Virus record (IMG/VR): IMGVR_UViG_3300030107_003322 | Span: 1 to 43,227 of that record | Length of the DNA stretch: 43,227 nucleotides | Strand: one strand, 5' to 3' | Source: a virus | Shown here: in pieces, positions 12,828 through 43,227 of the stretch | How positions within the stretch are numbered: position 1 is the stretch's first letter | Layout: each line of letters begins with the position of its first letter | Position numbers and translations under genes: made by a program | The notes under the pieces: model-generated | Seen by the model: only the letters and a program-made list of their open reading frames with translations | Databases searched by the model: none | Told to the model about the DNA's origin: nothing

Positions 12828-14258
12828 ATGCAAGTATTAAAAACTTATTACAATGATGCGCAAATGACGGATACTAATTCGTTAGTAAATGCGCTATTGG
12901 AAAAGCCAGCTGAGCTTTCTCCAATAATTACACATCTTGCAGGAAGAGAAGATAGAAAATTTCCGTTAACTATGTTAACTGAAGGGGTTGGTAACTCTAA
13001 GTCTATTGATAGATGGGAGTATGAATACCGCGTAAAATCTCACACTATTAATACTCGTCCTCTTGCTGTGGCAAATGGTGGTTCTAACTTAGGTTTAGGT
13101 GGAAGCACTTTTGAATTAATATTTCCAGACAAATGGTTCATTTTCCCTTATACATTGATTTCACAATCAGGTGTACAAGCAAGAATTATGGCTGAGCCAA
13201 GAGCGGCTGGAAACAACTATGTCTACACAATGCAATTAGTAGATCCAGATGCAACGGCAACTTTGCCAGCTGCTGATCACGCTTTAGGATCAATCTGGGG
13301 TCAATTATATGCTAATGTTGGGGTTGACTTCTCTAGAGGTAATGCTTCTAATTGGAGTACACCAGGTATGGTAAGAAACAAAATTGGTACGGTTAGAAAA
13401 TCTTATCACTTCGCAGGAAATGCTAAGAACTACGTTGCTGAGTTTGCTTTACCTACTAAAGGTGGAAAAACTACCAAAATGTGGATGGACTATGAAGAGT
13501 ATCTACACATGTTATCTTTCAAAGAAGAATGTGAGTTACTTTACTGGTACGGAGAAAAAACTTATGGTAATGATGGAATAGTAAACATGACTGATGAAAA
13601 TGGGCAACCAGTAATCACAGGTCCTGGATTATTACAGCAAATTATCAATAAGGACACTTACTCTACTCTAACTGAAACTAAATTAACAAATCTTATCGGA
13701 GATTTATTCTACGGTATGACTGATGGATCTAATAAGAGCATCACATTGTTTACTGGTATTGGTGGAGCAAGAGAATTTGACAATGCATTAAAGAACTACC
13801 AAGGTGGTTTCCCTACTGCTTCTAATTGGACAGTAAATGCAGATAGTAAATTTATTACTGGGTCAGGACGTTCTTTAGGAATGACTGGTTACTTTACAAG
13901 TTATGACCATATTGATGGACATACAGTAAATGTGGTTAAACATCCAATGTTTGATCATGGTCCTGTAGCTCAAGCAAGATCTAAGCATCCTGTGACAGGT
14001 TACTCTATGGAATCATACAGAATGGTATTTGTTGATACATCTAATTATGATGGACAAGCAAACATTCAAATGATTAACAAGAAAGGACGTGAGTACTTAA
14101 GATGGGCAGTTGCGGGTTCTGTTGTTCCAGCAGGATTTGGATCTAGTGATCTACGAGCTTCTGACATTGATGGTGCAAGTGTACACATGCTTAAGACGGC
14201 AGGTATCGTTCTTAAGAGATTTGATACTTCTATTGATTTAGAGTGTGTGCGCGTATAG
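12828..14258 (+). CDS. Major capsid protein (HK97-fold, crAss-like)
   Basis: The 476-residue protein lies after the scaffold. Features include an N-terminal helix (DTNSLVNALLEKPAEL), a long E-loop-like segment (about 60-115), a central RKSYHFAGNAKNYVAEF region followed by ECELLYWYGEKTYG, and a GPGLLQQI segment that I associate with crAss-like capsid proteins. The C-terminal third includes LFTGIGGAREFDNALKNYQ and ends in LKTAGIVLKRF. Codons here are less A/T-skewed than those of most neighbours, as expected for a very highly expressed gene. It builds the icosahedral shell. A strong hairpin follows. Confidence 0.85.
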   Translation: MQVLKTYYNDAQMTDTNSLVNALLEKPAELSPIITHLAGREDRKFPLTMLTEGVGNSKSIDRWEYEYRVKSHTINTRPLAVANGGSNLGLGGSTFELIFPDKWFIFPYTLISQSGVQARIMAEPRAAGNNYVYTMQLVDPDATATLPAADHALGSIWGQLYANVGVDFSRGNASNWSTPGMVRNKIGTVRKSYHFAGNAKNYVAEFALPTKGGKTTKMWMDYEEYLHMLSFKEECELLYWYGEKTYGNDGIVNMTDENGQPVITGPGLLQQIINKDTYSTLTETKLTNLIGDLFYGMTDGSNKSITLFTGIGGAREFDNALKNYQGGFPTASNWTVNADSKFITGSGRSLGMTGYFTSYDHIDGHTVNVVKHPMFDHGPVAQARSKHPVTGYSMESYRMVFVDTSNYDGQANIQMINKKGREYLRWAVAGSVVPAGFGSSDLRASDIDGASVHMLKTAGIVLKRFDTSIDLECVRV

Positions 14259-14427: not shown

Positions 14428-15240
14428 ATGGCAAAAAGAAAAATAACAATTCTGCGTAAAGAGCCTACAGGGTTTTTACCTAAATCGGTTAGAGCAGAAT
14501 CAAGAATGTATATCAGTAGTGTTTATATGAATAGACAACCTTTAAAAGGGGTAACTTCTGATGAAGCAAAGAAATATTTAAATGGTATTTTAGATGTAGG
14601 ACCAGATCATGTAGACTGGCCTAAACATGAAAAACACTATTGGACAAATATGTCTATTATGATACCGTTTGGAGGAGTAGAATTAGATATATCTACTACT
14701 GCAGATGGAGAGCCTGAAAATATTGAAGATTGGTTAAGATATAAGTGGATATTAAAACATCCGCATGTAGGTTTAAACAAAGAAGAAATGATAGGCGATA
14801 TTAAAAAGAGATTTTTTATTCAAGACGCTCAAAGAGATTTGAGACAAGCGAATAATAAAATTCAACTTTTAAAAGATGCTGATAAAGAATTTATAAAATT
14901 ATCAGATAGTAAATCAGATATGAGAAGGGTATATCGTTTAATGGCAAATGATAATCCTGACAGATTAACTGATTTAGAAATTGAAAATAGACTTTATAGT
15001 TTAAAATCAGATAAACCTAGTAAATTTATTAGGATATCTCAAGATAAACATTTAAAAATGAAGTCTGAAATTGAAGAAATGTTAAGTGCTGAAATTTTAA
15101 GAAGGATAGGAAATCAAATTATTTACCAAGATGAAATTCTTGGAGATACGTTACAAGATACAGTTATTCATCTTACTGATAAAAAGAATTCAGGAAAATT
15201 AACAAGTTTAAGAGCGAAACTTAAAGAAGCAACTATTTAA
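14428..15240 (+). CDS. Conserved head/neck-associated structural protein, 270 aa
   Basis: Starts MAKRKITILRKEPTGFLPKS after an A-rich leader. It holds a strand-rich N-terminal 100 residues with WTNMSIMIPFGGVELDIST and a mainly helical rest (DIKKRFFIQDAQRDLRQANNKIQLL). I recall proteins with this outline directly after the capsid gene in crAss-like phages, but cannot assign a role; no enzymatic motif is present. Stop and next start overlap (TAATGA). Likely a minor head component or neck-assembly protein. Confidence 0.6.
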   Translation: MAKRKITILRKEPTGFLPKSVRAESRMYISSVYMNRQPLKGVTSDEAKKYLNGILDVGPDHVDWPKHEKHYWTNMSIMIPFGGVELDISTTADGEPENIEDWLRYKWILKHPHVGLNKEEMIGDIKKRFFIQDAQRDLRQANNKIQLLKDADKEFIKLSDSKSDMRRVYRLMANDNPDRLTDLEIENRLYSLKSDKPSKFIRISQDKHLKMKSEIEEMLSAEILRRIGNQIIYQDEILGDTLQDTVIHLTDKKNSGKLTSLRAKLKEATI

Positions 15241-16415
15241 TGACAATAGATGAAATGCATATAGGAGTACAGCATGGGGTTGACAAAATCAACTCCATGC
15301 ATTCCGACGTTTTACTTCCAGAGGAAATAGATCTAGAATTGAATAAAAATATTTTAAGATTTATTAATACTAGATTTAATCCTCGAGGTAATAGATATCA
15401 AAAAGGTTTTGAAATGTCTCAAAAACGTATAGACGATTTAAGAACTTTAGTGATAGAGCAAAGTATTCCTACAGCATATAAAGGACATGTATTTGATAAT
15501 ACTTGGGTAGATGCTGCATTTTTACCTTCAGATTATTTATATTTAATAAATGTAAAATCTTTAGTAAGATCAAATAAATGTAAAGATTTTTGTCACACAG
15601 TAGCAGTTGCGCAAATGAAGCCTTTAGCATTTATATTAAATGTAAATTTAACAATGCACGTTACTCCTAGTGGAGGTTTACCAGCTACTTTTACTAGTCC
15701 TGCAAATGCATATATTGGTTATGAATCGTTGGGTCAAAGTAATGCTCCACTGTTAACTCAAGTAACTAAAAAATATCCTGGTGCTTCAGGTTCAACAGCT
15801 CAATTAAAAAGCTTTTTTACAAATTCTTCTAATTGGTTATTTCCGGGAGTGTCAATTACTGATATGGGAGGTACATTGCTTAAGGTTGAAATGCCAATAG
15901 GAAATACTACACAATTTGATTATTTAGGAATAGTTTGGTATGACAATACTAGTGCTGCTGGGGTAGATCATCCTGGCCAAACAGATGATGCGGGAGGTAA
16001 TTCTCATCCTCATACTGCGTCAGGAATATTTAGTTCATCTTCTTTTTGGGGAGAAAAAAGATACCCTTGTGATGATGATTTTACACATACAGTTGGGATA
16101 AATGAATTTGCTCAACATGATGATATATATACAGTATTACAAGATCCATTTAATAAAACAACATACAAATCACCTTTATTTACAATTAAGGAAGATTATA
16201 TAGAAGTGTATACTGATAATACATTTATAATAAATGATATTAAAGTTACATATTTAAAACAACCTGCAGAAGTAAATGCAGGTAATAATATAGATTGTGA
16301 CCTGCCTCAACATACTCATCAAGAGATTGTTGATATGACAGTTGCCACAATTTTAGAGGGACTTTCAGATCCTCGATACCAAAGTAGCAATATGGAGTTA
16401 TTAAAATCTGAATAA
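15240..16415 (+). CDS. Probable neck/tail ring or connector protein, 391 aa
   Basis: The N-terminus is helical with MHIGVQHGVDKINSMHSDVL and LELNKNILRFINTRF; residues around 95-110 carry AAFLPSDYLYLINVKSL. The LPSDYxYL motif is characteristic of head-to-tail connector and ring proteins of short-tailed phages, and a close variant (CLPSDLYYINLV) occurs in the gene at 40835. The middle (about 135-270) is an inserted Gly/Ser/His-rich domain, and the C-terminal part has KVTYLKQPAEVNAG followed by a helix (HTHQEIVDMTVATILEGL), the usual end of such connectors. It probably sits in the neck below the portal. Confidence 0.62.
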   Translation: MTIDEMHIGVQHGVDKINSMHSDVLLPEEIDLELNKNILRFINTRFNPRGNRYQKGFEMSQKRIDDLRTLVIEQSIPTAYKGHVFDNTWVDAAFLPSDYLYLINVKSLVRSNKCKDFCHTVAVAQMKPLAFILNVNLTMHVTPSGGLPATFTSPANAYIGYESLGQSNAPLLTQVTKKYPGASGSTAQLKSFFTNSSNWLFPGVSITDMGGTLLKVEMPIGNTTQFDYLGIVWYDNTSAAGVDHPGQTDDAGGNSHPHTASGIFSSSSFWGEKRYPCDDDFTHTVGINEFAQHDDIYTVLQDPFNKTTYKSPLFTIKEDYIEVYTDNTFIINDIKVTYLKQPAEVNAGNNIDCDLPQHTHQEIVDMTVATILEGLSDPRYQSSNMELLKSE

Positions 16416-16449: not shown

Positions 16450-17439
16450 ATGGCAAAACATGTATTCGTAGACAGCACAGCATCAGCTACTGCTGCTTAC
16501 ACATTAGCAACAAACGCAGCTTTCAATGGTAATGCAGCTGGTTTAATTGGTTTGTGGAGTTTGGATTTAGGAGACCATATTGGTGGAGCTTCTGCTGCTG
16601 AAGACTTTTTTGATGGTACATCAATTGTACCTACAAGATTTCAGTTTACTCAAACACCTGCATCTGGTATGACTTATGCTACAGGTATTCTTGAATCTGC
16701 AAATGTAAAGCTTATAACGCACCAACCTCACGTAGTTAGTGCAAAAGCTGTAACTACTAACGTTACAATTAACAATTCTGGATCAGCTTTAAACAGCGCT
16801 ACTTGGGGTTTGAAAATAATCCAAAGAGCAGGAATTAGTGATTATGAAGAATTTATTAATCCTTCAAGTGACAGAGTAGACAGAGTAGGGAAAATTATGA
16901 GTTATGAGTATGAATCAGATGCTACTGGTACTGTAACTGAAATAGCTAACGGTTTAGTAGCTGCAATTAATGCAGATGCTCATTCAATCGTAACAGCTGC
17001 TTCTGGGGGTGCTGGTCAACTTCAGCTTACAGCTAAAGATTATGGCGTTGGTTTCCAAGTAATAGATACTAGTGCAACTACTATGACTTATGCTTCTGGA
17101 ACTATCGTTGGAACTTGGGGTGCTACTGAAGGTTATGGTAATGGATGGCAAGCTGTTATGGCTGAGAAAAAGTCTAGACACCATAAAGGTGCTTATCACA
17201 ACAGACTTTGGTTACCAAAAAGCGGACCTGAATTATTTGCAGACACAGCTAAAACTTATGACATCACAACAATTGTGTTGAATGGTGGTGTAAGACAAGA
17301 TGCAACTAATGCAAAAGATGATCAAATAGTTGAATTATGGATTCCATCTGGATGGGCTTCTGGTTCTTCTACTTATGATTCTCTTTTTGATGGAGCTTCT
17401 GAGTCTGGAACTGATTTACAAATTATTTATAGCGCATAG
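16450..17439 (+). CDS. Virion structural protein, 329 aa (decoration or tail-tube-like)
   Basis: Ala/Thr/Gly-rich throughout, as in highly expressed virion proteins. Residues about 155-205 hold a recognisable module found in several tail sheath/tube and fibre proteins: a helix ITEIANGLVAAINA-like stretch (VTEIANGLVAAINADAHSI) followed by strands QLQLTAKDYGVGFQV. The rest is strand-rich and ends LQIIYSA. A related helix-plus-strand module recurs in the protein at 30988. A terminator follows, so the gene ends a transcription unit that starts near 14400. Its precise place in the particle is unknown. Confidence 0.55.
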   Translation: MAKHVFVDSTASATAAYTLATNAAFNGNAAGLIGLWSLDLGDHIGGASAAEDFFDGTSIVPTRFQFTQTPASGMTYATGILESANVKLITHQPHVVSAKAVTTNVTINNSGSALNSATWGLKIIQRAGISDYEEFINPSSDRVDRVGKIMSYEYESDATGTVTEIANGLVAAINADAHSIVTAASGGAGQLQLTAKDYGVGFQVIDTSATTMTYASGTIVGTWGATEGYGNGWQAVMAEKKSRHHKGAYHNRLWLPKSGPELFADTAKTYDITTIVLNGGVRQDATNAKDDQIVELWIPSGWASGSSTYDSLFDGASESGTDLQIIYSA

Positions 17440-17523: not shown

Positions 17524-18069
17524 ATGGCTTTAACAGCGACTATTTCAGGGGACTGTAAAATTCTAACAATTGCAGGAGGAGCAGACTATGCAAACGCAGA
17601 TGTCGATATCTATTGGAATGATGTAACTATATCATCTATACCAAGAGAAACTTCCGCTCCTTACAATCCAATTTTAAGTTTAACTTCAGCAGGAGATTTA
17701 ATATTATCTTTAAGTAATTTTATAGATGATACTGGTGCTAGCTCAACAACATATACTCATTTTAATGGTATTTTTAAAATTGTAGTTACTACTGCAACAG
17801 GGACTCATGAATTAGGAGCAGTTGGTATGTGTGATATCAATTGTTGTTTAGCCGCAAAAACAAAAGAATTATTAAACTGTAAGTGTACTGAATGTAAAGA
17901 ATGTGCATCTATACTTGCAGATATAGCAAAGATATTTTTATTATTACAAGGAGCAAAAACAAATGTAGGAGGATGTGTTCAAACTACTACTCTATATGAA
18001 AAGTCTATAGATGAGTATTTGAAAGCTAAAGAGATTTGTGGAGTTCAGAATTGTAATTGTGATTGTTAA
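17524..18069 (+). CDS. Virion-type protein with Cys-rich helical tail, 181 aa
   Basis: Two parts are visible. Residues 1-105 are a beta-rich domain (LTATISGDCKILTIAGGADY, then FKIVVTTATGTHELGAVG). Residues 106-181 are helical with about fifteen cysteines (CDINCCLAAKTKELLNCKC, CKECASILADIAKIFLLLQG, ending CGVQNCNCDC). No signal peptide. The Cys-rich tail could bind metal or form disulfides once the particle is outside the cell. It lies 13 bases upstream of the giant SprB-repeat gene, whose C-terminus is also Cys-rich, which suggests that the two products assemble together. Family not recognised by name. Confidence 0.6.
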   Translation: MALTATISGDCKILTIAGGADYANADVDIYWNDVTISSIPRETSAPYNPILSLTSAGDLILSLSNFIDDTGASSTTYTHFNGIFKIVVTTATGTHELGAVGMCDINCCLAAKTKELLNCKCTECKECASILADIAKIFLLLQGAKTNVGGCVQTTTLYEKSIDEYLKAKEICGVQNCNCDC

Positions 18070-18082
18070 AATAAATTAAATT

Positions 18083-21000
18083 ATGGCTTGGAACCCTTCA
18101 CCCCCTCCTGGGCATACTTCAGGAGTTTCACATTTTGATGCTGCATTTGATGGTCTAAGATTTGCTTTAGTTAAACTAGATAATTTTAGTTTACATATGA
18201 TAAAGCCTACATGGACTTGTAATGTTAAAGGTTCAGGGTCTGGAAGTAGATGGGGTACTCAACATCAGTTTTTTGGTTATCAGGATACATTAACTCCAAT
18301 TGTTATGAGAACCGGAAGTGAAGGATCTTCATCATGTGTTACTCAATCTCCTTTAGGGTGGAATAATAATATTACTCCTTCATTTTCACATTGTACTCCT
18401 TATATTAGAAATGCTAATGTTGATATTAGTGCTTGTGAACCTGCTGGTCAATCAACTTATGGATTTGGATTTTCTTCAATGGTAGATTGTGAACAAGGAT
18501 GGGAATCTGGTGTAGCTAGTAATAATCTGTGGAATGGGTATAGCGGCTCTTGTGGAGGTGTAGCTTATAGCCAAAATACACATAAATCTTGCCATTGTTA
18601 TGAATGTTATAGAGGTGGAAATACAAGTTCGTGTACGCCCTCAACGTATCATCCTGCAGGAGCTACTCCTGTACATTATTCTACAAATATTGGTGATAAT
18701 TTTTATGGTATACATGAAAATAGTTGGACTATAGGTGGATGGGGTTTGAATGGCGCTGCTCCTGAAGGGGGAGGTGCTTATAGTGATACTAAGTGGATGA
18801 ATTTATATGGAGGAGGCGCTCAACTTTGGGGATCTCCTGCTACTCAATCTCATCAACATAATACTAGTTATTACTCTGTAGGAATGACTATGAATGATAT
18901 TACCTTAAATTCTAGTTTTATATACAAACCTTTTCCTGTTAATGATAATAGTCCATCAGGAGATGTAGGTAATGTTATATACCCTGTAGAATCAAACGCT
19001 AATATAAATATTGAGCAGAATAAATATGGTCTTGATGATAATATAAGTTATTACGCTATTATATTAATACCTACTCATCCAAGCCATAAAGCAGCTGGTG
19101 CTTTATCTTCACAATTTGAATTTAAACTTCATATGGAAAGAACTAGTGATGCTCATAAGAAAGCATATGCAGATTTATGGCCTTCGGCACTAGGACCTAG
19201 TTCCTATTCAAGTGAGGATCATTGGTATGTAATGGGTAGTTATGCTGTAGATAGCTCAGCATTTGATAGTACCGGACAAGCTCAATATGATTGGTATTTA
19301 GCTGAATCAAATACAGGTATGATGCATAATGCTTTTGCAGGAAATGATAGTGGAGATGAGTATCATCAAGTATTTGGAGGTATTATGGATGGAGAATTTG
19401 CACGTCTAGACGATGCTTGGTGGATGGATGATGGTGGCCCAAATGGTAATCCATGGAATGTAGAGTTATTAAGTGAAATACAAAAGCATATGATTAAAGA
19501 GGCTTGTTATCATAGGCTTGATACAAATTTACTACCGGATGATAGAGAGACTACAATATTAGTAACTAAAACACCTGCATGTGCTCCAGCTTGGAATGTT
19601 GTAGATGAAGGTTTATATTGGTTTAATGCTGGTGATCCTAATGAGCATATTATTATTGAAGATGATAATCCTTATTTTAATTTACACGTAACTGATAAAT
19701 CTAGCGGTAAAACAATAGTATTTAAAGATGTAGCTACAGGTATACAAGATACTAAATATGGCCGAGATTCTTACACTCTTCCTCAAGAACAGGGATTATC
19801 TTCACATTATTCAGGTCTATCGTGGAGACAAGGGCATAATGGTATGACTATTGCTGCTGAATTAATACAAGATTGGGAGAGTTATATTTTTAGTGAGACT
19901 CCATCTTTTAGTTGGGATGATATTAAAGTACATACTTTAAGAACTGTAGGATGGGATTCTTATATCGCAGACACAGGAGGTGCGGGAGTAAGTCATGGTT
20001 CCGGATATATGGACCCAACAGGAACTATAAGAGGTGCGTTTTATGAATTTGATGGTAGAACATATTTAAAGCCGCCAAATGAAATGACAGTTAAACCTTC
20101 TAGATATATACATCATGTATATGGAGATGCTACGGATAATGCTGGATGTACAGGTAAAGTACTTAGCAGACATCCTGTAGGAGCTCTGTGTGGTCATACA
20201 AATGCTCCTGGTAGTAATTATCATAATATATATGGTGCTACTACACAAGGATTTAATGATGAAATGGTTGGTCTGATGTATATAGGATTAAAAAATGCTT
20301 ATGGAGTTGGTATAAACGGAGCTCCTATTAGTAATACTAATACTGCAGTATGTTGGCCTAATGGACCTCAACCTTTAGTAACTTATGGTGCAGATACTGC
20401 AGATAATACTCTTGGTCTTTGGAGTTATGGTAATGGAGTTAATATATATGTTAGTCATGCAACTGGAAATTATGTTTGGCCAGATCATACTCATACTAGT
20501 ATTGCAAATTGGAATGCTAATCATGGTATTTTACCTTTCCATACAAATGCATCAGCTAATACAAATAATCAATGGGCAATTTGTACAGGTAATGGTATGA
20601 TTTATAATACTACTCCACTTAATACTCAATGTACTTGTAATTGTGCTGTTACAGCATTAGCAAAATGTAGTACTGGTAATGGATCTGTAACTGTTACTAT
20701 AGATAATGTCCCTCCTTCAGGTGTAACTATTGATGATATTTCCTTTTCAGGTTCTATAACAACTATTCCTTCTAATCCTACCGGATCTCAAGGAACAATA
20801 AATAGTACTACAAATTATTATTTTCTTGCTCCTGCAGGAACACATACAGTAAGTATAGATATAACAGACGGAGCTAGTAGTTATACTATAACTCAAACAG
20901 TAACTATTGGTGTAAATTTAGATATAACTTATAGTATAGATAGTGCTGTAGTACACCAAGCTCCTACTTGTTCTACAGATGGAATTGTAAGAGTTCAATT

Positions 21001-24000
21001 TGATTGTGCAAACGTATCAGGTGGTACTCAAGGAGGATCTGGAGGTTTAAAATGGGCAATATTTAAAGATAATTCAGGTACTTGGGATTATGAAAATGAT
21101 GGACATCCTTTTGCAGCCACAACTGTATATAACGGTGTAACAGGTTCAGGAGTTCCAGGATCATCTTGTCCAAATATTGTTTTTGCGGGGTCTTCTTGTA
21201 ATGATAAAGAGTTTGATATAGATGGTCTTTCAGACGGTACATATAGAGTGGTTCTTTTTGAAGCTGGAAGTATTCCTAATGGTAGTACAGATTATACTAC
21301 TTGGTATGATAGATGTTTTGATCATGCAGATGTTATAGTTTCTACTGGTACTATTGCTTTAAGTGCAACTGGAACTGGAGCGGCATGTGCTCCTGTAGAT
21401 CGTGAACATGATTATAGTGGATATAATGGCACAACCGATGGTACAGGATATATGGTAACTTGGCCTTCACTTACTCCTTCTAATATGGGTACTATAGTAG
21501 TTACTATGACTGGTGTGTCTACTACAGGTAATTACACTTTGACCCATACAATGCCAAATACATCAACTACCACATCACAAAATGCATTTCCAACTGGGGG
21601 TACTGATACATATACTGCATTAGAAAAATACTGTGCTCCCGGAACTCATACTTTTACTATTACAGATGCTGTTGGATGTACAGCTACTACGACTTATACT
21701 GTAAATGAGCCTACTCAAATGAGTTGGGATACTATACCTTCTGCAACTAGTCCTCCTTGTTCTGGAGGTTCAGGTTCAATTTCTGGAGGTGTTGCTCTTG
21801 CAGGCGGATGTGGAGGTAATGTGCAATATGCAATATCTTTAAGTACTATTGGTAATTCTACTTGGAGCGGGGGTGCTGGAAGTTGTTGTTGGGATATAGA
21901 TGCAGACTTATACTCTACATGGCAAAATACATCAGCTTTTACTCTACCAGCAGGTTCATATCGAGTATGGGCAAAAAATACATGTGGATGTTTACTTAGA
22001 TCAGATATTTTAACTATTGGAGCAGGAGGTTCTTTATCTAGTACTATAGCTGTTACAAATCCAGGATGTACAGGAGGTGTAGCAAGTATAGCGGTATCAG
22101 CAAGTGGTGGTACTGGTCCTTATACATATACTTGGACAACAGTAACTACAGGAACAGCAGGGGTTGCAGACCCTTCTTTTATAGCTCCAGCAACTAGTTC
22201 AAACTCATTTACACAACAAGCTCCAGGAGGTACTTATGATTACGAATGTCTTGTTCAAGATTCTCTTGGATGTCAGCAAATTCTTACAGCTTCTACTATT
22301 GCAGGAGCACCTTTAAATATAACAGCAGTAGTATCTTCAATAAGTTGTGCAGGCGGAAGTAATGGTTCAATTGATGTTACAGTAACTGGAGGAACTCCAG
22401 GATATACTTATCAATGGTCAGGAAGTTCTAGCGCAACAAGTCAAGATCTTTCTAGTTTAGGAGTAGGTACGTATACTTTATTAGTAACAGATAGTACAGG
22501 AGGTACTCCTTGTACTGCTACAGATACTTGGACAATAGCTTCTACAGGAGGAGCAGAAGGATGGGTAGATATTAATCAATATGCTTGGTCTGGATATAAT
22601 ACTGCTTATGGAGATTCTATTACAGGAACAGCAGCTGATAATAATACATATGGAAAATATGGAGGACCTACATGTCCTAATAGTAAAGATGGAACAATAA
22701 GATTAATGCTTGACTCTACTACTCCAGTGGTGGGAGCGTCTTTCCCATTTGAAGTATGGTTAAGTAATGATGGAGGAGCAAATTATTATAGGGCTGCAAC
22801 TAGTGCCGGAGGTAGTAACTGGTTAAGTATTACAACTACTGATCTAGTTAATCCATCAACAGGAGTACAAACTGGAACAGGAGTAGTTTATGACCCACAA
22901 ACTGCAGTAGACGGCGTTGATTACTTTGAAATAACTGGAAATGTAGATAAATGGAATCCAGGAACAGGTGATGAAGTATTACCATTTACTGAAGGATCTA
23001 CTTGGCGTATTAAATTAATAGAAGACGGAGCTTCAGGGTGTTTTGCTGAATTTGATACAACAATATTACCAAGTGATTATAGAACTGTATTAAATCAAGC
23101 AGTTGCTACAAATCCTACATGTTGTGGATGTAGTTCTTATGGAGCTAGTATAGCAACTAATGTATGTAATGGAAGTATAGATAATACTCCAATTAGAGGA
23201 ACATATGAAGATCATATAAATACTAATTATACATATTTATGGACATATGCAGGAGATAATCAAACAATATGCTCTCATCCGGGACATAATAATACAAATA
23301 CACAATGGTCTAATAAAACTACACAAGATTTAACAGCTGAATGGCCTGGAACGTATACTATATTAACAACTGATTCTTGCGGTGGAACGGATTCAGATGA
23401 TATATATTTATGGAATCCTGTAGTATATATAGATGATATTACATGGGTTCCGCCTCAATGTATAGACTGCTGTACTGGAACTCTTACAATAACTGCACAC
23501 GGAGGTGATGGTAATTTATTTGCTTCTTTAGATAATGGTTCAACATGGGTATCAATAGCAGGTTCATCTTACCCATCTGTCTACACATTCACTAATATGT
23601 GTGGAGGTATTAGTAATATATGGGTAAAAGATGGTTCAGGATGTGCTGTAGAATATTTTGCAGATCCAGATGATGGAACTCTATTACCTTCTTATTCAGA
23701 TAATTGTTTTGCAAATGCTAATCAATCAGGTATAATAAGTACTTCAGGAACGTGGACACCTACTCATAATAGTTCTACATTAGGAACGGCAACAGCTAGT
23801 GCTTTTACAGAGTCTTCTCCTACTAAAATAGAATTAATACCAGTATCTAATTTTACTGATGCTACTGCTTGTATTGCTAGTCATAATATTATTCCAGGGG
23901 ATACTAATGGAGAAATAAATTTATTTATTACTGGAGGAACAGGTCCTTATGAAGTTGCTATTGTAGCACAGGCGGGTCCTTTTTATACTCCTAGTGTTCC

Positions 24001-25735
24001 TTTTCACCCTTGTTGGGGAATAGGACCTTTAACATCGACTACTCCTTGTGACTTTACAGGGGATCCTATTAGTACTTATGGACCATCATTAAACTCTTCT
24101 TCAGTAATGACTGTATCGCATGGAGGAGCTCCTGCAGTTCCTGTAGCTGGCGCAATAATAACAACAAGTAGTACTCATTTAAAATTTACTAATGTTAGTG
24201 TATCTAGAGATTTAGGATATGGAGGTTTAGGGGCTGAATATATATTTTATGTTAGGGATTCTCACGGATGTTATAAAACTTCTCATGTAGGAATGGATAA
24301 TGGAATCTTTGGAATTATATCTGTATACGGAGCTATGAATTGCGATTGTGTATGTCCTATAGGATATGTATATGATGAAGCTTTAGAAGAATGTGTAGCT
24401 AAACAAGCTACAGTAGCTAATCCTAATGCATTAACAGGGTATTGGACACTAACTACGAATTTATATGCTGGAGCTAATACTCCTAATGTGTGGCAAAATA
24501 ATGGATGTGCGTTATATGGTGTATGGACTGGAACTGCTGTTGATTACGCTCAAAGTATTACAATAAATACTAATGACTTACCGTTAAAAAAAGATGTAAT
24601 TAGTGCAGGTACTACTGGTCCTAATCATTTATATAAATCAGTTAGTTTACTTACACAGATTGGAGTAGATTTAGGTGTATGGAATACAGCAGGTAGTACT
24701 AGTTATATAAATGATAGAGTAAAAGATATAGCAATTTGGGTAGATCAGGCTATAGGAACAATTCCTCCTGTTCCTATAGGTGAGTATATAGGATGTATAA
24801 CAGAAATTAATTTTGCTAGTAATACTCCAGCAGTTATAGGTATGGCATCTGACGCCAAAATGATAATGAAGATTGATGGAGTGCCTTGGATTGATATGGA
24901 GGGAGATGAATCGCAAGCATTAACAGTTACTTCTAATTATAATTATTTTAACTTCTTCCCTATAGTATTACCAGCAGGATTACATACTATTTCTTTTGAA
25001 GTGTTAAATACAGCTACAGATGCAATGATGGCATTTGAAGTATACACAAATCAACTCTCTACAGGGACATATTTTGTAGGAGATATTTTAGGAAGTTCTT
25101 TTAGTGCATCAGATCTTCAAAATTATATATTACAGGACTACAATGGAGATGATTTAAGTAGTAAAACATTTGCTACAAGAGAAATACAATTAGGTACTAC
25201 TTATGGATATTCTTGTGCAGATCCTGGCGACGCAGTAAGTTTCTCTGACGGATCTTTATTTTGTATTCAAGATGTTACTGCTCCATGTGAAGTACCTTTA
25301 GATTGTGGATATTGTTTAAGTGATACAGGAGTCCCAAAACCACAATTTACTAAAAAAGGACCTTGTTTAGCTGAAACTGATGGTCACCCAACTACTCCTA
25401 CATCATTAAATAATGTATGGGTAACGGATTATTCTGAATTATCAGATTTAGTAGAATGTCCAGGCGCGTTGGCTAATACTGCTTATGCTAGAATAATGGG
25501 GGCTCTAGCAACTAGAACTTTAGATGTAAGACAAATTTGGATGACTATAATCATAAGACATTTATTACATAATTTAAATAGTTGTATGACATTATCTGAT
25601 ATACAAGATGTGTTTACAGGTTTCTTAGATGAAGTATGTCCAACATGTGAAGTAGATGAAAAATTAACACCTGCTCAGATGGAAGCTTTAACTACAATAT
25701 TCTCACTTAATACAAATTCAAACTTTGACTTTTAA
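18083..25735 (+). CDS. Giant virion adhesin with SprB-type/Ig-like repeats, 2550 aa
   Basis: Residues 1-840 are a unique Gly/His/Trp/Cys-rich region without a signal peptide. Residues about 847-2070 are a chain of roughly ten beta-sandwich modules of the SprB-repeat kind; the best copies read CTGGVASIAVSASGGTGPYTY (split: CTGGVAS, IAVSASGG, TGPYTYTW, near 1324) and CAGGSNGS, IDVTVTGGTPGYTYQW near 1419, each ending in TxxxxVxDSxGC. SprB is the mobile gliding adhesin of Flavobacterium. The C-terminal 250 residues are helical and Cys-rich (YARIMGALATRTLDVRQIW). As it is made in the cytoplasm within the virion operon, I infer a tail appendage that contacts the host surface. Receptor specificity cannot be read. 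Confidence 0.68.
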   Translation: MAWNPSPPPGHTSGVSHFDAAFDGLRFALVKLDNFSLHMIKPTWTCNVKGSGSGSRWGTQHQFFGYQDTLTPIVMRTGSEGSSSCVTQSPLGWNNNITPSFSHCTPYIRNANVDISACEPAGQSTYGFGFSSMVDCEQGWESGVASNNLWNGYSGSCGGVAYSQNTHKSCHCYECYRGGNTSSCTPSTYHPAGATPVHYSTNIGDNFYGIHENSWTIGGWGLNGAAPEGGGAYSDTKWMNLYGGGAQLWGSPATQSHQHNTSYYSVGMTMNDITLNSSFIYKPFPVNDNSPSGDVGNVIYPVESNANINIEQNKYGLDDNISYYAIILIPTHPSHKAAGALSSQFEFKLHMERTSDAHKKAYADLWPSALGPSSYSSEDHWYVMGSYAVDSSAFDSTGQAQYDWYLAESNTGMMHNAFAGNDSGDEYHQVFGGIMDGEFARLDDAWWMDDGGPNGNPWNVELLSEIQKHMIKEACYHRLDTNLLPDDRETTILVTKTPACAPAWNVVDEGLYWFNAGDPNEHIIIEDDNPYFNLHVTDKSSGKTIVFKDVATGIQDTKYGRDSYTLPQEQGLSSHYSGLSWRQGHNGMTIAAELIQDWESYIFSETPSFSWDDIKVHTLRTVGWDSYIADTGGAGVSHGSGYMDPTGTIRGAFYEFDGRTYLKPPNEMTVKPSRYIHHVYGDATDNAGCTGKVLSRHPVGALCGHTNAPGSNYHNIYGATTQGFNDEMVGLMYIGLKNAYGVGINGAPISNTNTAVCWPNGPQPLVTYGADTADNTLGLWSYGNGVNIYVSHATGNYVWPDHTHTSIANWNANHGILPFHTNASANTNNQWAICTGNGMIYNTTPLNTQCTCNCAVTALAKCSTGNGSVTVTIDNVPPSGVTIDDISFSGSITTIPSNPTGSQGTINSTTNYYFLAPAGTHTVSIDITDGASSYTITQTVTIGVNLDITYSIDSAVVHQAPTCSTDGIVRVQFDCANVSGGTQGGSGGLKWAIFKDNSGTWDYENDGHPFAATTVYNGVTGSGVPGSSCPNIVFAGSSCNDKEFDIDGLSDGTYRVVLFEAGSIPNGSTDYTTWYDRCFDHADVIVSTGTIALSATGTGAACAPVDREHDYSGYNGTTDGTGYMVTWPSLTPSNMGTIVVTMTGVSTTGNYTLTHTMPNTSTTTSQNAFPTGGTDTYTALEKYCAPGTHTFTITDAVGCTATTTYTVNEPTQMSWDTIPSATSPPCSGGSGSISGGVALAGGCGGNVQYAISLSTIGNSTWSGGAGSCCWDIDADLYSTWQNTSAFTLPAGSYRVWAKNTCGCLLRSDILTIGAGGSLSSTIAVTNPGCTGGVASIAVSASGGTGPYTYTWTTVTTGTAGVADPSFIAPATSSNSFTQQAPGGTYDYECLVQDSLGCQQILTASTIAGAPLNITAVVSSISCAGGSNGSIDVTVTGGTPGYTYQWSGSSSATSQDLSSLGVGTYTLLVTDSTGGTPCTATDTWTIASTGGAEGWVDINQYAWSGYNTAYGDSITGTAADNNTYGKYGGPTCPNSKDGTIRLMLDSTTPVVGASFPFEVWLSNDGGANYYRAATSAGGSNWLSITTTDLVNPSTGVQTGTGVVYDPQTAVDGVDYFEITGNVDKWNPGTGDEVLPFTEGSTWRIKLIEDGASGCFAEFDTTILPSDYRTVLNQAVATNPTCCGCSSYGASIATNVCNGSIDNTPIRGTYEDHINTNYTYLWTYAGDNQTICSHPGHNNTNTQWSNKTTQDLTAEWPGTYTILTTDSCGGTDSDDIYLWNPVVYIDDITWVPPQCIDCCTGTLTITAHGGDGNLFASLDNGSTWVSIAGSSYPSVYTFTNMCGGISNIWVKDGSGCAVEYFADPDDGTLLPSYSDNCFANANQSGIISTSGTWTPTHNSSTLGTATASAFTESSPTKIELIPVSNFTDATACIASHNIIPGDTNGEINLFITGGTGPYEVAIVAQAGPFYTPSVPFHPCWGIGPLTSTTPCDFTGDPISTYGPSLNSSSVMTVSHGGAPAVPVAGAIITTSSTHLKFTNVSVSRDLGYGGLGAEYIFYVRDSHGCYKTSHVGMDNGIFGIISVYGAMNCDCVCPIGYVYDEALEECVAKQATVANPNALTGYWTLTTNLYAGANTPNVWQNNGCALYGVWTGTAVDYAQSITINTNDLPLKKDVISAGTTGPNHLYKSVSLLTQIGVDLGVWNTAGSTSYINDRVKDIAIWVDQAIGTIPPVPIGEYIGCITEINFASNTPAVIGMASDAKMIMKIDGVPWIDMEGDESQALTVTSNYNYFNFFPIVLPAGLHTISFEVLNTATDAMMAFEVYTNQLSTGTYFVGDILGSSFSASDLQNYILQDYNGDDLSSKTFATREIQLGTTYGYSCADPGDAVSFSDGSLFCIQDVTAPCEVPLDCGYCLSDTGVPKPQFTKKGPCLAETDGHPTTPTSLNNVWVTDYSELSDLVECPGALANTAYARIMGALATRTLDVRQIWMTIIIRHLLHNLNSCMTLSDIQDVFTGFLDEVCPTCEVDEKLTPAQMEALTTIFSLNTNSNFDF
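20625..24300 (+). repeat. Coding region for about ten divergent SprB/Ig-like protein modules
   Basis: At protein level module starts fall near codons 847, 960, 1096, 1222, 1324, 1419, 1527, 1675, 1789 and 1929 of the giant gene, each opened by a Cys followed by GxI/V and closed by a VxDSxGC-like strand. Spacing varies from about 95 to 150 residues and the DNA copies are diverged, so this is an old module chain rather than a recent tandem duplication. Confidence 0.55.
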
Positions 25736-25746
25736 AATATAAAACT

Positions 25747-27057
25747 ATGGCAACAAAAGTAAATTCTTTAACAACAAAACAAATAACACTAGCTTCTGAT
25801 GCTGCTAATGAATATTTATATATAACAAATACATTAACAAGAAATGATAGTAAAATGTTATTATCTAATTTATTTCTTAATGTTAAATCTGTAGGACAAG
25901 GTGCGCCTCTGATTACAAGTAATACAACTATTAATAGTTTTGAATGTAAATCTTTATCTTCAAATTCAGATGTATTTGTAATTAGTGATAAAGGATCTAC
26001 GATTGATTTTATTTTTGAGCCTAGTTTATTAGACCTATCTAAATGTAAAAATACTACTACTCCATTTTTGTCAACAGTAAATTTAGCGTCTAATGTAGGA
26101 GCAACAGTATTACCTACTGCAAATGGAGGAACAAATAAAAGTTCTGCTTATGTTGTTGGAGATGTAGTATATGCATCAGCTACAGATACATTAGCAGGAT
26201 TAGCAGGAGTTGCTACAGGAAATGCATTATTATCTGGAGGAACTGGTACTGCACCTGCTTGGGGTAAAATAGGATTAACTACTCATGTTTCTGGCACTTT
26301 ACCTGTAGGTAATGGAGGAACTGGAGCTACTAGTTTTACTTCAAAAGGAGTTTTATTAGGTAATAATACAGGCGCGGTTGCAGTAAGTAACGCAGGATCA
26401 ACAAATGGAACAGTATTACTTGGTAATGCTTCTGGTAATCCAGCTTTTGCTGCTGTTACATCTCCTGATAACACAATTCAATTTACAACTGGTGCCGCTT
26501 CTTTAGGGTTATCTACAAGAATTACTACTTTAGAGAATTCATCAGGAACCGCAGCTTTAATGGTTGATGGTAGTGGAAATATGGTTTCTCAAGCAAATGC
26601 AACCTTGACGTATAAAAAACCTGTAGAAAGTATAACTGCTGCCACCTATAATGTAGAGGCAACTCAATCAGGAACTTGTTTTACATTAAATAGAGCTGGA
26701 GGTATTGCAATAACTTTACCAACAGCTGCTGCTGGATTAATATATGATTTTCATATAACAACTACATTTACAGGAACACTTACAATTACTGCAGATAGTT
26801 TAAATGATACATATACAGGAGCTGTAAAAAATATAGATAAAGATGAAAAAGGAAGTGTTGTAGCTTTAAATGAAGGTATTGACACAACAGGATGGAATAT
26901 TCCTGGATTAACAGATTATATATTAACTTTAGATGGTGATAGTGATGGTAGATTTTTAGGAGGGCATCTTAAATTTACTGCTTTATCAGCTTCAATATGG
27001 CATATAGAAGGTACTTTATTTGGAGATGGAACTGTTACACACATCTTTAGTGCATAG
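25747..27057 (+). CDS. Tail fibre protein with GGTG repeats, 436 aa
   Basis: The middle third has repeated trimeric-fibre signatures: TANGGTNKSSAYVVGDVVYAS, LSGGTGTAPAWGKI, VGNGGTGATSFTSKGVLLGN (each about 20-40 residues apart), which are standard in phage tail fibres. The N-terminal 110 residues are probably the attachment domain; the C-terminal 150 are beta-rich with a likely small receptor-facing or capping domain (GIAITLPTAAAGLIYDFHIT; ending TVTHIFSA). It follows the giant adhesin after 11 bases, so it is in the same transcript. A role in host recognition is inferred from family. Confidence 0.72.
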   Translation: MATKVNSLTTKQITLASDAANEYLYITNTLTRNDSKMLLSNLFLNVKSVGQGAPLITSNTTINSFECKSLSSNSDVFVISDKGSTIDFIFEPSLLDLSKCKNTTTPFLSTVNLASNVGATVLPTANGGTNKSSAYVVGDVVYASATDTLAGLAGVATGNALLSGGTGTAPAWGKIGLTTHVSGTLPVGNGGTGATSFTSKGVLLGNNTGAVAVSNAGSTNGTVLLGNASGNPAFAAVTSPDNTIQFTTGAASLGLSTRITTLENSSGTAALMVDGSGNMVSQANATLTYKKPVESITAATYNVEATQSGTCFTLNRAGGIAITLPTAAAGLIYDFHITTTFTGTLTITADSLNDTYTGAVKNIDKDEKGSVVALNEGIDTTGWNIPGLTDYILTLDGDSDGRFLGGHLKFTALSASIWHIEGTLFGDGTVTHIFSA

Positions 27058-32825: not shown

Positions 32826-33106
32826 TGGCTAAAGAATTAAACGAAGAAACAGGGTTTATATTAAGTATAAAAACAATAATAGGTTTAGCATTTGCTATAG
32901 CAACTATTGTAGGTATGTGGTTTGCTTTACAAGCAGATATTGAAGAGGCTAAAGAATTACCAGCACCTCCTGATCCTGAAGTAACACGTATGGAGTTTGA
33001 TATGAAAGACCAAATGATTCGTAATACTATTATGGATACTCAAAAGGATGTAGAAGAGATTAAGGAGACTCTTGAAAAGATAGAAGATAAGTTGTATGAT
33101 AGATAA
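32825..33106 (+). CDS. Single-pass membrane protein with C-terminal coiled coil, holin-like, 93 aa
   Basis: I use ATG 32825 (MAKELNEETGF), which overlaps the preceding stop as TAATG, rather than the in-frame TTG nine bases earlier. One membrane helix (about 14-36, IKTIIGLAFAIATIVGMWFAL) precedes a Pro-rich linker (LPAPPDPEV) and a long coiled coil (about 52-90). It mirrors the previous protein in topology, with anchor first and coil second, so the two may form a complex across the inner membrane. It could be a holin or a spanin-like spacer protein; the data do not decide. Confidence 0.55.
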   Translation: MAKELNEETGFILSIKTIIGLAFAIATIVGMWFALQADIEEAKELPAPPDPEVTRMEFDMKDQMIRNTIMDTQKDVEEIKETLEKIEDKLYDR

Positions 33107-37437: not shown

Positions 37438-37623
37438 ATGAAAATAAATTGGATAAATGGCTTTAATGCCGGTAATAAAAAACAAAAGTATGAATTAAAT
37501 TTTAGGCTAGGAACTTTCACAGTTTTAGAAATTAAACTATGTTTGTGTGAAAATTGTGAAAATAAAAAAGCATACTGCTCAAAATTTAGACTTATGATAT
37601 TAAATTTGGGATTTGAAATATGA
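37438..37623 (+). CDS. Small hypothetical protein with four close cysteines, 61 aa
   Basis: ATG directly follows the TAA of the lipoprotein gene after A-rich bases, and the stop overlaps the endolysin start (ATGA), so it is in-line and coupled. The protein is basic with CLCENCENKKAYC (about 35-47), a C-x-C-x2-C-x6-C pattern suggestive of a metal site. No signal peptide. Function unknown. Confidence 0.5.
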   Translation: MKINWINGFNAGNKKQKYELNFRLGTFTVLEIKLCLCENCENKKAYCSKFRLMILNLGFEI

Positions 37624-39646: not shown

Positions 39647-40354
39647 ATGACCCTAGATCAAATTGCATACAATATTTTAAATTTAATCAGAGGAGGAAAG
39701 ACTCATCATGATGAGACAATTTCTTTATCTCAATTAAAATTTAATATTAAATACTATAGAGCAATGCTTTTAAGAAGAGACTTTGCTCGTAATGGTTTAG
39801 TAACAAGACATGTAGAACAAGATTTAGGATGTTTAAAACTTATAAAAGTTGACGCAACTAAATGTTGTAAACTTCCTATAGACTGTCATGTTATGAGAAC
39901 TGAAATGAAAGTTCCTAGAACTATTAGATTTAATTTTAATGATGCAATTACATATGTAGGGGCTGTAGATGGAATAACTAGAATACCTTTGGTAGAGCCT
40001 CATATGGTAAAATATTTAATGTGGGATAAATATACAGGTAAGAACACTAAGGCATATATGATAGAAGATTATTTATATTTATATGAACCACATGAAATAG
40101 GTATGGTTAATATTAGAGGTGTGTTTGAAGACCCAGAAGAACTATCTAAATTTGATTGCGATACTGGAGATTGTTATGATTCTACATCTGATTTTCCTAT
40201 ACCAGCAGATATGATTTCAACTATTACACAAGGCATTGTACAAGGAGAGTTAGGGCTATTGGCTTCTACATTTAGTGATAAAGAGTTAGACAGACATCAA
40301 GATTTAGCACCTGCTCCTAATATACCTAGACCTCAACAAGAAAGAGAAGAGTAA
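39647..40354 (+). CDS. crAss-like neck/ring structural protein, 235 aa
   Basis: A helical N-terminus (TLDQIAYNILNLIRGGKTHHD, then LSQLKFNIKYYRAMLLRRDFARNG), a beta middle part (CLKLIKVDATKCCKLPIDC, TYVGAVDGITRIPLV) and a C-terminus SDFPIPADMISTITQGIVQGEL are the order I remember from conserved proteins of the neck in crAss-like phages, located directly upstream of the tail hub genes. Its stop overlaps the next start. It probably forms one of the stacked rings between portal and tail. Confidence 0.65.
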   Translation: MTLDQIAYNILNLIRGGKTHHDETISLSQLKFNIKYYRAMLLRRDFARNGLVTRHVEQDLGCLKLIKVDATKCCKLPIDCHVMRTEMKVPRTIRFNFNDAITYVGAVDGITRIPLVEPHMVKYLMWDKYTGKNTKAYMIEDYLYLYEPHEIGMVNIRGVFEDPEELSKFDCDTGDCYDSTSDFPIPADMISTITQGIVQGELGLLASTFSDKELDRHQDLAPAPNIPRPQQEREE

Positions 40355-40833
40355 TGGGATACACTTTAACACATATATATAAAGCTTATAAAGATGAGGT
40401 TTTAGATGCTGTAGATAATACAACATTTAAAGATATTTGCAGTGACTTTAATATAATGATTATGGATTATATATTAGAAGGTAAAGAGTTTAATATGGGA
40501 TATAATTTATCTACATTATCTATAGTTAGAATGGAAAGAGATCCTAGAGCTCCTAGAGTAGATTGGTCAGAGTCTAATAAATATAAACAAGAACTTAAAG
40601 ATAGTGGTGAACAGTTATATAATAAAGAGACAGGAGAAGGTGTGAAATGGCAAATATATTTTACTGATGATTATTATTATAAATACTATTGGAGAAAAGG
40701 TAAATGTAAAGTAAAAAATAAATCAGTATATAGATTTGATGCTACAAGAGGATTAAAAGGGAATAAAGAAAGATTAACTAGATTATTAAAAGAAGACGAG
40801 TTAGCTTATTTAAAATTTAAAAAATATAAATAA
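40354..40833 (+). CDS. Conserved crAss-like assembly or neck protein, 159 aa
   Basis: Contains HIYKAYKDEVLDAVDNTTFKD-type helix, then FNMGYNLSTLSIVRMERDPRAP and VDWSESNKYKQELKDSG, YFTDDYYYKYYWRKGKCKVKN, and ends with NKERLTRLLKEDELAYLKFKKY. The pairing of VDWxxSNK and TDDYYxxYYWxK followed by a GNKxRLxxLLKxDExAYLxF end is one I recognise from crAss-like genomes, always between two neck genes. No domain name known to me. Strongly basic; it may bind DNA or the portal vertex. Confidence 0.62.
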   Translation: MGYTLTHIYKAYKDEVLDAVDNTTFKDICSDFNIMIMDYILEGKEFNMGYNLSTLSIVRMERDPRAPRVDWSESNKYKQELKDSGEQLYNKETGEGVKWQIYFTDDYYYKYYWRKGKCKVKNKSVYRFDATRGLKGNKERLTRLLKEDELAYLKFKKYK

Positions 40834-40834
40834 T

Positions 40835-41713
40835 ATGGCAATATATAAACAAATATCTAGTCAAACTATTATCAGAAAGATAATGAGAGATCTTGGTTTA
40901 AGTACAGACAATTGGATTGAAGATGCTATTGAATGGATGGGGGAAGCTTTAGAGCATATAGGGGCAGCACCTCAACTAGAAAAGAAAGTATGTACTTTAA
41001 CTGTTTCTGAGTATACAGCTTGTTTACCTTCTGATTTATATTATATTAATTTAGTAGCAACTAATAAAAGAGTTGCGGGCAGTATATCAACTGAGTTAAA
41101 AACTCTTACTACTAAGATAGCAGAAATAAAAGCACTGCTAGATGCTAATCCTGATCAAAATGTATTAACAGAATTAAGAGAATTAAATTCTAGATATGTA
41201 GTATTAGAAAGTATGTATTGGGAAAATCCTGATGAATTATCTCCTTTATCTTATGCTACTTCTGACTTTCCTGTAGCACTGCATTGTGACAATTGTTTAA
41301 ATCGTAATGCCGCTACAAAAGATACTTACTTTATAAACGGAGGTAAAATTAAAACATCATTTGTATCAGGAACTATTTGTTTAAGTTATATGTCTTTTCC
41401 AACAGATGATATGTGTTATCCTATGATACCAGATGATATAAGTTTTAGAGAAGCTATGTTTTGGTATATTTATAAAAAACTTTTATTAAGAGATCCTAAC
41501 ACTAAGCCTAATGGAATAACTTATGATATAGCAGAGCAGCAATGGAAATATTACTGTACACAAGCTAGAAATAGCGCTATATATCCTGATATTGATAGAT
41601 ATGAGTCATTCATGAATCAATGGGTGAGATTAATACCTAGAATTAGTGAACATGATTCTAACTTTGCAGTATTAAATACAAGAGAACAATTAGATAGAGA
41701 CCCAACAGAATAA
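40835..41713 (+). CDS. crAss-like neck ring/connector protein, 292 aa
   Basis: Opens with SSQTIIRKIMRDLGLSTDNW and EWMGEALEHIGAAPQLEKK, leading to the strand pair KKVCTLTVSEYTACLPSDLYYINLV. This is the connector/ring motif also present, in variant form, at 15240. A helical insertion (KTLTTKIAEIKALLDANPDQN) follows, then GGKIKTSFVSGTICLSYMSF and a helix of the YIYKKLLLRDP kind, ending in FMNQWVRLIPRISEHD. These features match neck proteins of crAss-like phages. It would sit between portal and tail hub. Confidence 0.68.
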   Translation: MAIYKQISSQTIIRKIMRDLGLSTDNWIEDAIEWMGEALEHIGAAPQLEKKVCTLTVSEYTACLPSDLYYINLVATNKRVAGSISTELKTLTTKIAEIKALLDANPDQNVLTELRELNSRYVVLESMYWENPDELSPLSYATSDFPVALHCDNCLNRNAATKDTYFINGGKIKTSFVSGTICLSYMSFPTDDMCYPMIPDDISFREAMFWYIYKKLLLRDPNTKPNGITYDIAEQQWKYYCTQARNSAIYPDIDRYESFMNQWVRLIPRISEHDSNFAVLNTREQLDRDPTE

Positions 41714-41714
41714 T

Positions 41715-43227
41715 ATGAAATTTTTAAAAGGATTAAATAGAGACACAAACCCTGTAGATCAACCGCCAGGAACATGGAGATACGCTAGAAATATAGTGGT
41801 TCCTCCAGGATCAGGAACGATACAGACAGAAAAAGGGACAGAAAGAGTAGTTAATGTTACTGCGGGATTTACTGTTATAGGTAGTTGTTTATTACCTGAT
41901 GAAAAAGTGTGTTTATTTCTTGCTTGGCCTGGATCTGCTAATCAATCTAGAATAGGAATATATGATCCTGTAACTGATATTTATACTACCGTGTATAGTG
42001 ACAGTTCTTGTACTAATACTAATAAATTAGATTTTAGAATAGAGTTTCCTATTCAAGCAGAATCTAAAATGGACATTACAGGTAAAATATCTGTATACTG
42101 GACAGATGATTATAATCCTATGAGATATATAAAACTATATGACCCTCCAACTTGTCCACATCCTGTTGAAGATTTTGATATATTTCCACAGCTTAGTGAG
42201 TTGCCTTATCCTGAATTAGATAGATTACAATCTGGTGTATTAACTGTAGGAGCTTACGCTTTAACCTTTGCTTTATTAGATGATGAAGGTACTCCTACAA
42301 ATTATTTAGCAATGTCTAACTGGGTATATATAACTCCTAACACATCTCCAGAATCTAGTGCGTCTGGGGCTATAGGAGCTAATATGCAAAGTAATCTTAG
42401 TGGTAATATGGGGTGGGTAAGTAACCTTGATGGTCATTCTACAATGAATTATCAAGGAGGTCCAACAGGAACAGCTGGAGCTAAAGGTATTATATTTAAG
42501 ATTAGCAATTTAGATCCGAGATATTCTTTTATTAGACCGTGTATAATAAAAAGAGAGGGAGGCGTTCTTACGGCACACAGATTACAAGATTTAGATTATG
42601 ATACTACTGCTAGTACTGAGATATTAATTTCATACACAGGAAATGAAATAACAGAGGCTGAAACTGTAGAAAATGTTTTAATTCCAAGAGAAACTTATAG
42701 CAGGGCTAAAACAGTAGCCCAAGTAGATGATACGTTATATTGGGGTAATTTAGAAAAAAGTAAAATAGACATAGGGTATCAACCATATGCAATGGGTATT
42801 GAAATTCATGCAAGTCAATCTAATTGGTCTTTTGCTAATACTAAAACTATTAATGGTATTAATGTAGATATGGATATAAATAGACCAGACAGTACTAACG
42901 CTATGAGAGACTCAAAAGATAAGTACTTTTATACAGGATATCAGAGAGATGAGGTATATGCTTTTTATATAACATGGATAACAATAGATGGTAATGAAAC
43001 TGTAGCTTATCATATACCTGGCAGACCTCCATTAGCTCTTGATGATTATGCAGGAACAGGCCTTAAGGAAAATGATTTAGCATGTTCTACTGTTAATGAT
43101 GTTCCTTATATGGATACAGGAGATGGTACTACTACTCCTTCTCCTAATCAGTTAGAAAGAATGGGACAGAATAATCCTTCTACTGCTACGGTACAAATAG
43201 GAGATCTTACTACTCATGGAGCTACTT
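41715..43227 (+). CDS. Tail hub/stabilisation-like protein of crAss-like phages, 3' end beyond the window
   Basis: An ATG one base after the preceding stop opens a frame that stays open for 504 codons to the window edge. It begins MKFLKGLNRDTNPVDQPPGT, then WRYARNIVVPPGSGTIQTEK; the GLNxDxxPxDQPxGTxRxAxN opening and following IGSCLLPDEKVCLFLAW, SRIGIYDPVT and VYWTDDYNPMRYI segments are characteristic of the large tail protein next to the neck genes in crAss-like phages. The strand pattern suggests a beta-propeller followed by other domains. Only the N-terminal part is seen, so full length and any C-terminal enzyme or receptor domain are unknown. Confidence 0.7.
   Translation, partial: MKFLKGLNRDTNPVDQPPGTWRYARNIVVPPGSGTIQTEKGTERVVNVTAGFTVIGSCLLPDEKVCLFLAWPGSANQSRIGIYDPVTDIYTTVYSDSSCTNTNKLDFRIEFPIQAESKMDITGKISVYWTDDYNPMRYIKLYDPPTCPHPVEDFDIFPQLSELPYPELDRLQSGVLTVGAYALTFALLDDEGTPTNYLAMSNWVYITPNTSPESSASGAIGANMQSNLSGNMGWVSNLDGHSTMNYQGGPTGTAGAKGIIFKISNLDPRYSFIRPCIIKREGGVLTAHRLQDLDYDTTASTEILISYTGNEITEAETVENVLIPRETYSRAKTVAQVDDTLYWGNLEKSKIDIGYQPYAMGIEIHASQSNWSFANTKTINGINVDMDINRPDSTNAMRDSKDKYFYTGYQRDEVYAFYITWITIDGNETVAYHIPGRPPLALDDYAGTGLKENDLACSTVNDVPYMDTGDGTTTPSPNQLERMGQNNPSTATVQIGDLTTHGAT

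Follow-up and report, generated by a model that had tools for sequence, protein, structure and literature searches.

What role does a giant protein with SprB-type modules, a family named after a bacterial gliding adhesin, play in a bacteriophage? The question is raised by an open reading frame of 2550 codons in IMG/VR virus record IMGVR_UViG_3300030107_003322, of which a stretch of 43,227 nucleotides, hereafter the window, was analyzed. An initial annotation had described about ten SprB-like modules in a signal-peptide-less protein encoded inside the tail-fibre block and had linked them to host gliding adhesins. The analysis presented here leads us to the view that the gene probably encodes a giant Crassvirales tail adhesin with a C-terminal anchor, an Ig-like rod and a variable N-terminal tip.

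The window is a piece of a Crassvirales genome. In addition to the major capsid protein it encodes a terminase and a portal protein (PHROGs, 2e-137 and 3e-119, respectively), and the succession of major capsid protein, gp33 counterpart and R3-5 ring protein matches that of phicrAss001, with the gene order being repeated in dozens of contigs (Table 1). The gene for the 2550-residue protein is the third after the ring gene. It starts 13 nt past the gene of a 181-residue protein and stands just before the gene of a 436-residue probable tail fibre, i.e., by synteny it had correctly been placed inside the tail-fibre block. The match of the 181-residue protein with tail hub protein gp38 is weak and covers 29 C-terminal residues (hhalign E=6e-4, probability 28.6%), and its position fits. 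The muzzle gene is located at 41715, and the tail tip gene is distinct from that of the 2550-residue protein. Two further proteins of this block were inspected. The ring R3-5 protein has a poorly conserved insertion of ~175 residues between conserved ends, and its length varies among relatives. The gene of a 329-residue protein (16450–17439) has the position of the capsid auxiliary gene in phicrAss001; the protein gave weak tail-sheath matches (phrog_165, 1.3e-5) and a weak match with the capsid auxiliary protein gp36 (hhalign probability 3.6%).

Table 1. Features of the candidate tail adhesin and of the surrounding structural genes in the window (aa, residues of the 2550-residue protein).
Feature	Position	Strand	Basis
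Major capsid protein, Crassvirales	12828..14258	+	Pfam Crass_capsid E=3.7e-83
Counterpart of phicrAss001 gp33	14428..15240	+	hhalign E=2.9e-10
Tail ring protein R3/R4/R5, gp34-like	15240..16415	+	PDB 7qoj_E E=2.9e-8
181-aa Cys-rich protein, possible tail-hub A (THA, gp38) counterpart	17524..18069	+	Position; weak C-terminal match
2550-aa candidate tail adhesin with Ig-like/SprB module array	18083..25735	+	ORF, Pfam SprB, relatives
N-terminal region, aa 1–849, least conserved, replaced in distant relatives	18083..20629	+	Identity comparison
aa 850–1120, probably more Ig-like domains	20630..21442	+	C/G/D pattern by eye; missed by module HMM
SprB-type module 1, aa 1123–1206	21449..21700	+	Iterated HMM
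SprB-type module 2, aa 1221–1304	21743..21994	+	Iterated HMM
SprB-type module 3, aa 1321–1403	22043..22291	+	Iterated HMM; Pfam 30.7 bits (22043–22150); AlphaFold β-sandwich
SprB-type module 4, aa 1413–1483	22319..22531	+	Iterated HMM; Pfam 56.1 bits (22322–22426); AlphaFold β-sandwich
SprB-type module 5, aa 1673–1771	23099..23395	+	Iterated HMM
SprB-type module 6, aa 1786–1855	23438..23647	+	Iterated HMM
SprB-type module 7, aa 1929–2067, long insertion	23867..24283	+	Iterated HMM; Pfam 20.4 bits, below cut-off (23897–23950)
C-terminal region, aa 2070–2550, Cys-rich, most conserved of the family	24290..25732	+	Relatives
436-aa probable tail fibre, LP..NGGT motifs, conserved neighbour	25747..27057	+	Motifs, relatives
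Ring 2, ring 1, muzzle start	39647..43226	+	Pfam CrAss_Ring_2 6e-40, CrAss_Ring_1 2.9e-58, crAss_MUZ 1.4e-24

We searched the 2550-residue protein against the Pfam SprB model PF13573, as the initial annotation had suggested, and obtained a match with E = 6.5e-15 and 54.9 bits at a curated cut-off of 28. It comprises three stretches, two of them above the cut-off. SprB was the sole family matched at E up to 1, and BACON (PF13004 or relatives) was absent. The Pfam model spans only the first half of a module (37 of ~80 residues). A module HMM, seeded with the strongest module and iterated over the family of the protein, found seven tandem modules of ~80 residues between residues 1123 and 2067 (37–57 bits, E 1e-10 to 7e-17), five of which are below the Pfam cut-off or unrecognised by Pfam. 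Every relative contained six to nine modules. As controls, 900 shuffled family proteins gave no match with this HMM, and neither did any of 20 iterated searches seeded with shuffled sequence. The modules follow the pattern C...G.I....GG...Y.Y.W...GTY...V.D..GC, with one Cys pair per module. At its N-terminus (MAWNPSPPPGHTSGVSHF) the protein lacks a hydrophobic segment, and a signal peptide is absent. SprB-family modules in a phage protein without signal peptide were therefore confirmed. As for their count of about ten, seven were found by the HMM, and ten is reached only with three Ig-like-looking stretches that the HMM misses (residues about 850–945, 947–1115 and 1490–1670).

For modules 3 and 4, AlphaFold produced two all-β sandwiches with a mean pLDDT of 86.3 from an alignment of 70 tandem pairs; in this model both modules have an Ig-like β-sandwich fold. 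Its structural matches were Ig-like and FnIII chains in general, with GhpA at the top (VIA-align Z 10.2, 156 residues, rmsd 4.5). GhpA, a grappling-hook adhesin of the Bacteroidota member Aureispira (PDB 9flp, 9flw and others), was also the best match of a wider module profile (E=1.1e-20). It differs from the phage protein in being a bacterial, T9SS-secreted adhesin of 5898 residues, and its structural Z is barely above that of unrelated Ig chains (9.5), for which reason we dropped the VIA-align list as a pointer to SprB-like structures. A family-only profile matched the Ig-like domains of T5 and N4 decoration proteins, neck whisker gp24 and Hoc with E from 3e-6 to 2e-4 (Hoc, 3shs, E=1.6e-4). 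In contrast to the 2550-residue protein, these are short proteins of one to few domains on heads or necks. We assigned the modules to PF13573 and the gene to the Crassvirales tail-region proteins with Ig-like arrays. The comparison with the BACON protein of crAssphage made in the initial annotation was apt, as that protein also has an Ig-like tandem array encoded near tail genes of a Crassvirales phage (PMC6949934). The BACON array is, however, of another Ig family and another lineage, and its variable end is C-terminal, whereas that of the window protein is N-terminal.

Searches of IMG/VR yielded full or partial relatives of the 2550-residue protein on about ten contigs. Identities for N-terminus, modules and C-terminus, respectively, were 33/48/52% (contig L095), 31/45/50% (L098) and about 17/29/30% (L096), i.e., conservation increases from the N-terminus over the modules to the C-terminus. 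The N-terminus of the relatives is divergent and in more distant ones wholly different. By contrast, the C-terminal ~480 residues are a constant part kept in all relatives and look helical towards the end, with a CPxC segment and a terminal DF motif. Residues 1–849 had no Pfam, PHROG or PDB-sequence match, and AlphaFold on residues 1–1200 with four sequences gave a pLDDT of 28.7 and no usable N-terminal fold. Neither an N-terminal nor a C-terminal profile matched PDB sequences. We also considered the C-terminus as a fused tail-hub protein and dropped this idea, since it had no match with gp38 or gp39. Likewise, a diversity-generating retroelement behind the N-terminal variability was rejected, because no reverse transcriptase was found in 11 relatives, several of which are fragments. 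Neither the whole protein nor modules 3-4 had a tblastn match in 50,697 phage genomes, and a cultured relative was therefore not identified.

In other members of the clade, the slot between the genes of the 181-residue and the 436-residue protein is nearly empty or holds unrelated proteins of 740–2840 residues. Swapping of unrelated proteins in one slot is as expected of a host-range module. Two groups of these unrelated slot proteins in sister phages have a similar hairpin-like CxxC end (hhalign E = 0.0013), which is suggestive of a C-terminal anchor. The slot marks where a candidate host-recognition device is exchanged, and the 2550-residue protein is a concrete candidate for such a device in a crAss-like group to which no cultured phage of the collection searched is closely related.

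As a tail adhesin, the 2550-residue protein would be fixed to the virion by its Cys-rich C-terminal ~480 residues (aa 2070–2550, the proposed anchor), probably at the tail hub, with the possible hub gene, that of the 181-residue protein, located directly upstream. Hubs and rings of phicrAss001 are stabilised by disulphides (PMC10172136). The module array would form a stiff rod, perhaps disulphide-pinned, that reaches through the surface layers of the host, and contacts of the rod itself with surface glycans are possible. Recognition of the host would then fall to the tip, formed by the fast-changing N-terminal ~850 residues, the proposed distal receptor- or glycan-binding part. Phage fibres are mostly anchored by their N-terminus. 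The proposed C-terminal anchoring is therefore unusual and, if real, would set this protein apart from the common polarity of tail fibres.

Other roles have to be weighed against that of a tail adhesin. PHROGs labels residues 1318–1482 as 'Hoc-like head decoration' (PHROG 2973, E=3.8e-6), and because of this label a location on the capsid is conceivable. In that case the 2550-residue protein would serve, in the manner of Hoc and of the decoration proteins of N4 and T5, as a capsid fibre or decoration by which the phage is held to mucus or to polysaccharide on surfaces. The profile matches with T5 decoration, the N4 32-kDa decoration protein and Hoc agree with this role, and phicrAss001 has two kinds of head fibre (PMC10172136). 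An Ig match is, however, silent on location, as matches were obtained with tail proteins (9c2d) and a neck whisker (9occ), too. Given also the size of 2550 residues and the gene's place between ring/hub and fibre genes, we regard a capsid fibre as rather unlikely. Still less probable is a non-virion protein, i.e., a bacterial-type adhesin carried as cargo that the infected cell would display or release. In its favour, SprB modules are a typical component of large Bacteroidota proteins, and the same phage encodes a separate exported-type protein (33813–36338, see below). Unlike the latter, the 2550-residue protein has neither a signal peptide nor a T9SS sorting domain (no Pfam or NCBIfam match at E up to 1), and its gene sits among structural genes, which leaves a cell-displayed cargo hardly credible.

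The gliding adhesins to which the protein had initially been linked might be imitated or bound by its modules, enabling the phage to dock on the moving adhesin of its host, to compete with it or to ride it. In Flavobacterium, the gliding machinery has been proposed as part of a phage receptor (PMC7345892). The closest bacterial modules, obtained in a scan with an alignment of closer members, are almost all from Bacteroidota and up to 67% identical in part, which would fit a Bacteroidota host, and modules 4 and 5 had a bacterial best match in all 10 equal-sized replicates. Overall, however, the best matches of the modules were mixed as to a host or a phage origin (35 of 55 bacterial, with both comparison sets chosen by similarity search and hence biased), and many unrelated phages contain such modules, too, beside PKD, cadherin and Ig domains. 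An IMG/VR scan with the best-conserved module gave 199 loci. Most of the 80 examined encode proteins without signal peptide on contigs outside the family of the 2550-residue protein, many with up to nine modules. All 33 viral records tested passed the Pfam SprB cut-off, and five viral module proteins scanned as a whole reached 71–136 bits, above the score of the window protein. PHROGs labelled three of these viral module proteins 'Hoc-like head decoration' or 'virion structural protein'. Moreover, phage proteins in UniProt are already named 'SprB repeat' (A0A6J5LD72, A0A6J5LDA4, A0A6J5MUM3). Such phage proteins, widespread at 700–1400 residues, have the module, the tandem array and mostly the lack of a signal peptide in common with the window protein. 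Those inspected differ from it in consisting largely of modules or in combining them with cadherin, PKD or BiPBP_C domains, and in their genomic settings; among the loci searched, the C-terminal profile had no match in them or elsewhere outside the family of the 2550-residue protein. Apparent jumbo phages have module arrays as well: viral contigs of 317–482 kb (L119, L131, L157, L172) carry SprB-module proteins, the one of L131 with a signal-peptide-like N-terminus.

In bacteria, SprB repeats are present in 50 of the 198 Bacteroidota genomes sampled, frequently as multiple copies spread over many large proteins, hence the module is no marker of gliding. With the family-only profile, RemZ of F. 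johnsoniae scored 3.5e-4, slightly weaker than the phage decoration and whisker proteins. SprB itself has a type B sorting domain. The gene of the 2550-residue protein is not accompanied by sprC, sprD or sprF and lies among ring, hub-like and fibre genes of the phage. Lacking signal peptide, sorting domain and sprCDF neighbours, the 2550-residue protein is not a SprB adhesin, and beyond the modules it has no T9SS- or SprB-specific parts. In addition, homology of rod modules does not imply binding to the homologue. A specific link to the SprB adhesin was thus not borne out, with the modules being common in unrelated phages, and nothing was found in favour of a ride on the gliding machinery. A gliding link is possible and is not indicated by the protein itself, and imitation or binding of a host gliding adhesin appears very improbable to us. 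SprB-type modules recur in many unrelated phages and in numerous surface proteins of bacteria; for this reason they seem to be an all-purpose spacer or sticky rod and no sign of a gliding link. 'SprB repeat' should accordingly not be read as gliding; in its wide distribution the module resembles BACON, Big and PKD domains.

The exported-type protein mentioned above (33813–36338, 841 residues) has a signal peptide and about a dozen GCTDSTxxNYxxxANTDxGSC repeats. Its C-terminus (DLLGRQVNETKNRVLFYIYDDGTIKKKIIIK) has the appearance of a type IX sorting domain. This copy itself reaches no Pfam or NCBIfam sorting-domain match, and its homologue in contig L102 (10575–13109) passes TIGR04183 with 23.9 vs 23 bits. 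Relatives are found on seven contigs of the clade, with a signal peptide and a type IX-like C-terminus in those read through. Relatives of parts of the protein were also found in 6 of the 198 Bacteroidota genomes. T9SS cargo encoded by phages has been reported before (PMC7468147; crAss cluster 2 in PMC6949934). Slot adhesins of sister phages (L102, 1732–5334; L057, 8592; L064, 7795) contain GCTD...DGSC repeats and no signal peptide. As GCTD...NY...DGSC repeats are common to these slot adhesins and the exported protein, the latter could mask or saturate the receptor of the adhesin. These phages might then act twice on the host surface, with a slot-swapped virion adhesin and with a protein exported via the type IX system of the host, a scenario that we put forward with considerable doubt. 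If true, the exported protein could bring about superinfection exclusion or, before lysis, change the contact between cells.

Several genes surround that of the exported protein. On one side, near this Cys-rich protein, a thioredoxin-like protein of 122 residues with hydrophobic N-terminus (33096–33464) possibly serves disulphides. It is followed by a staphylococcal-nuclease-like protein of 114 residues (33464–33808; NCBIfam EcnA/NucI, E 1.7e-10 and 8.9e-9, below cut-offs). On the other side, a predicted lipoprotein of 366 residues (MKKLLILPLLILASCS; 36335–37435) is encoded between the genes of the exported protein and of an M15 peptidase endolysin (37620–38090), and a holin-like gene is located at 38098–38490. 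Finally, a protein of 267 residues (30140–30943) weakly matched a LamG/ConA-like lectin (Pfam 1.2e-4, below cut-off) and is possibly another glycan-binding part of the virion.
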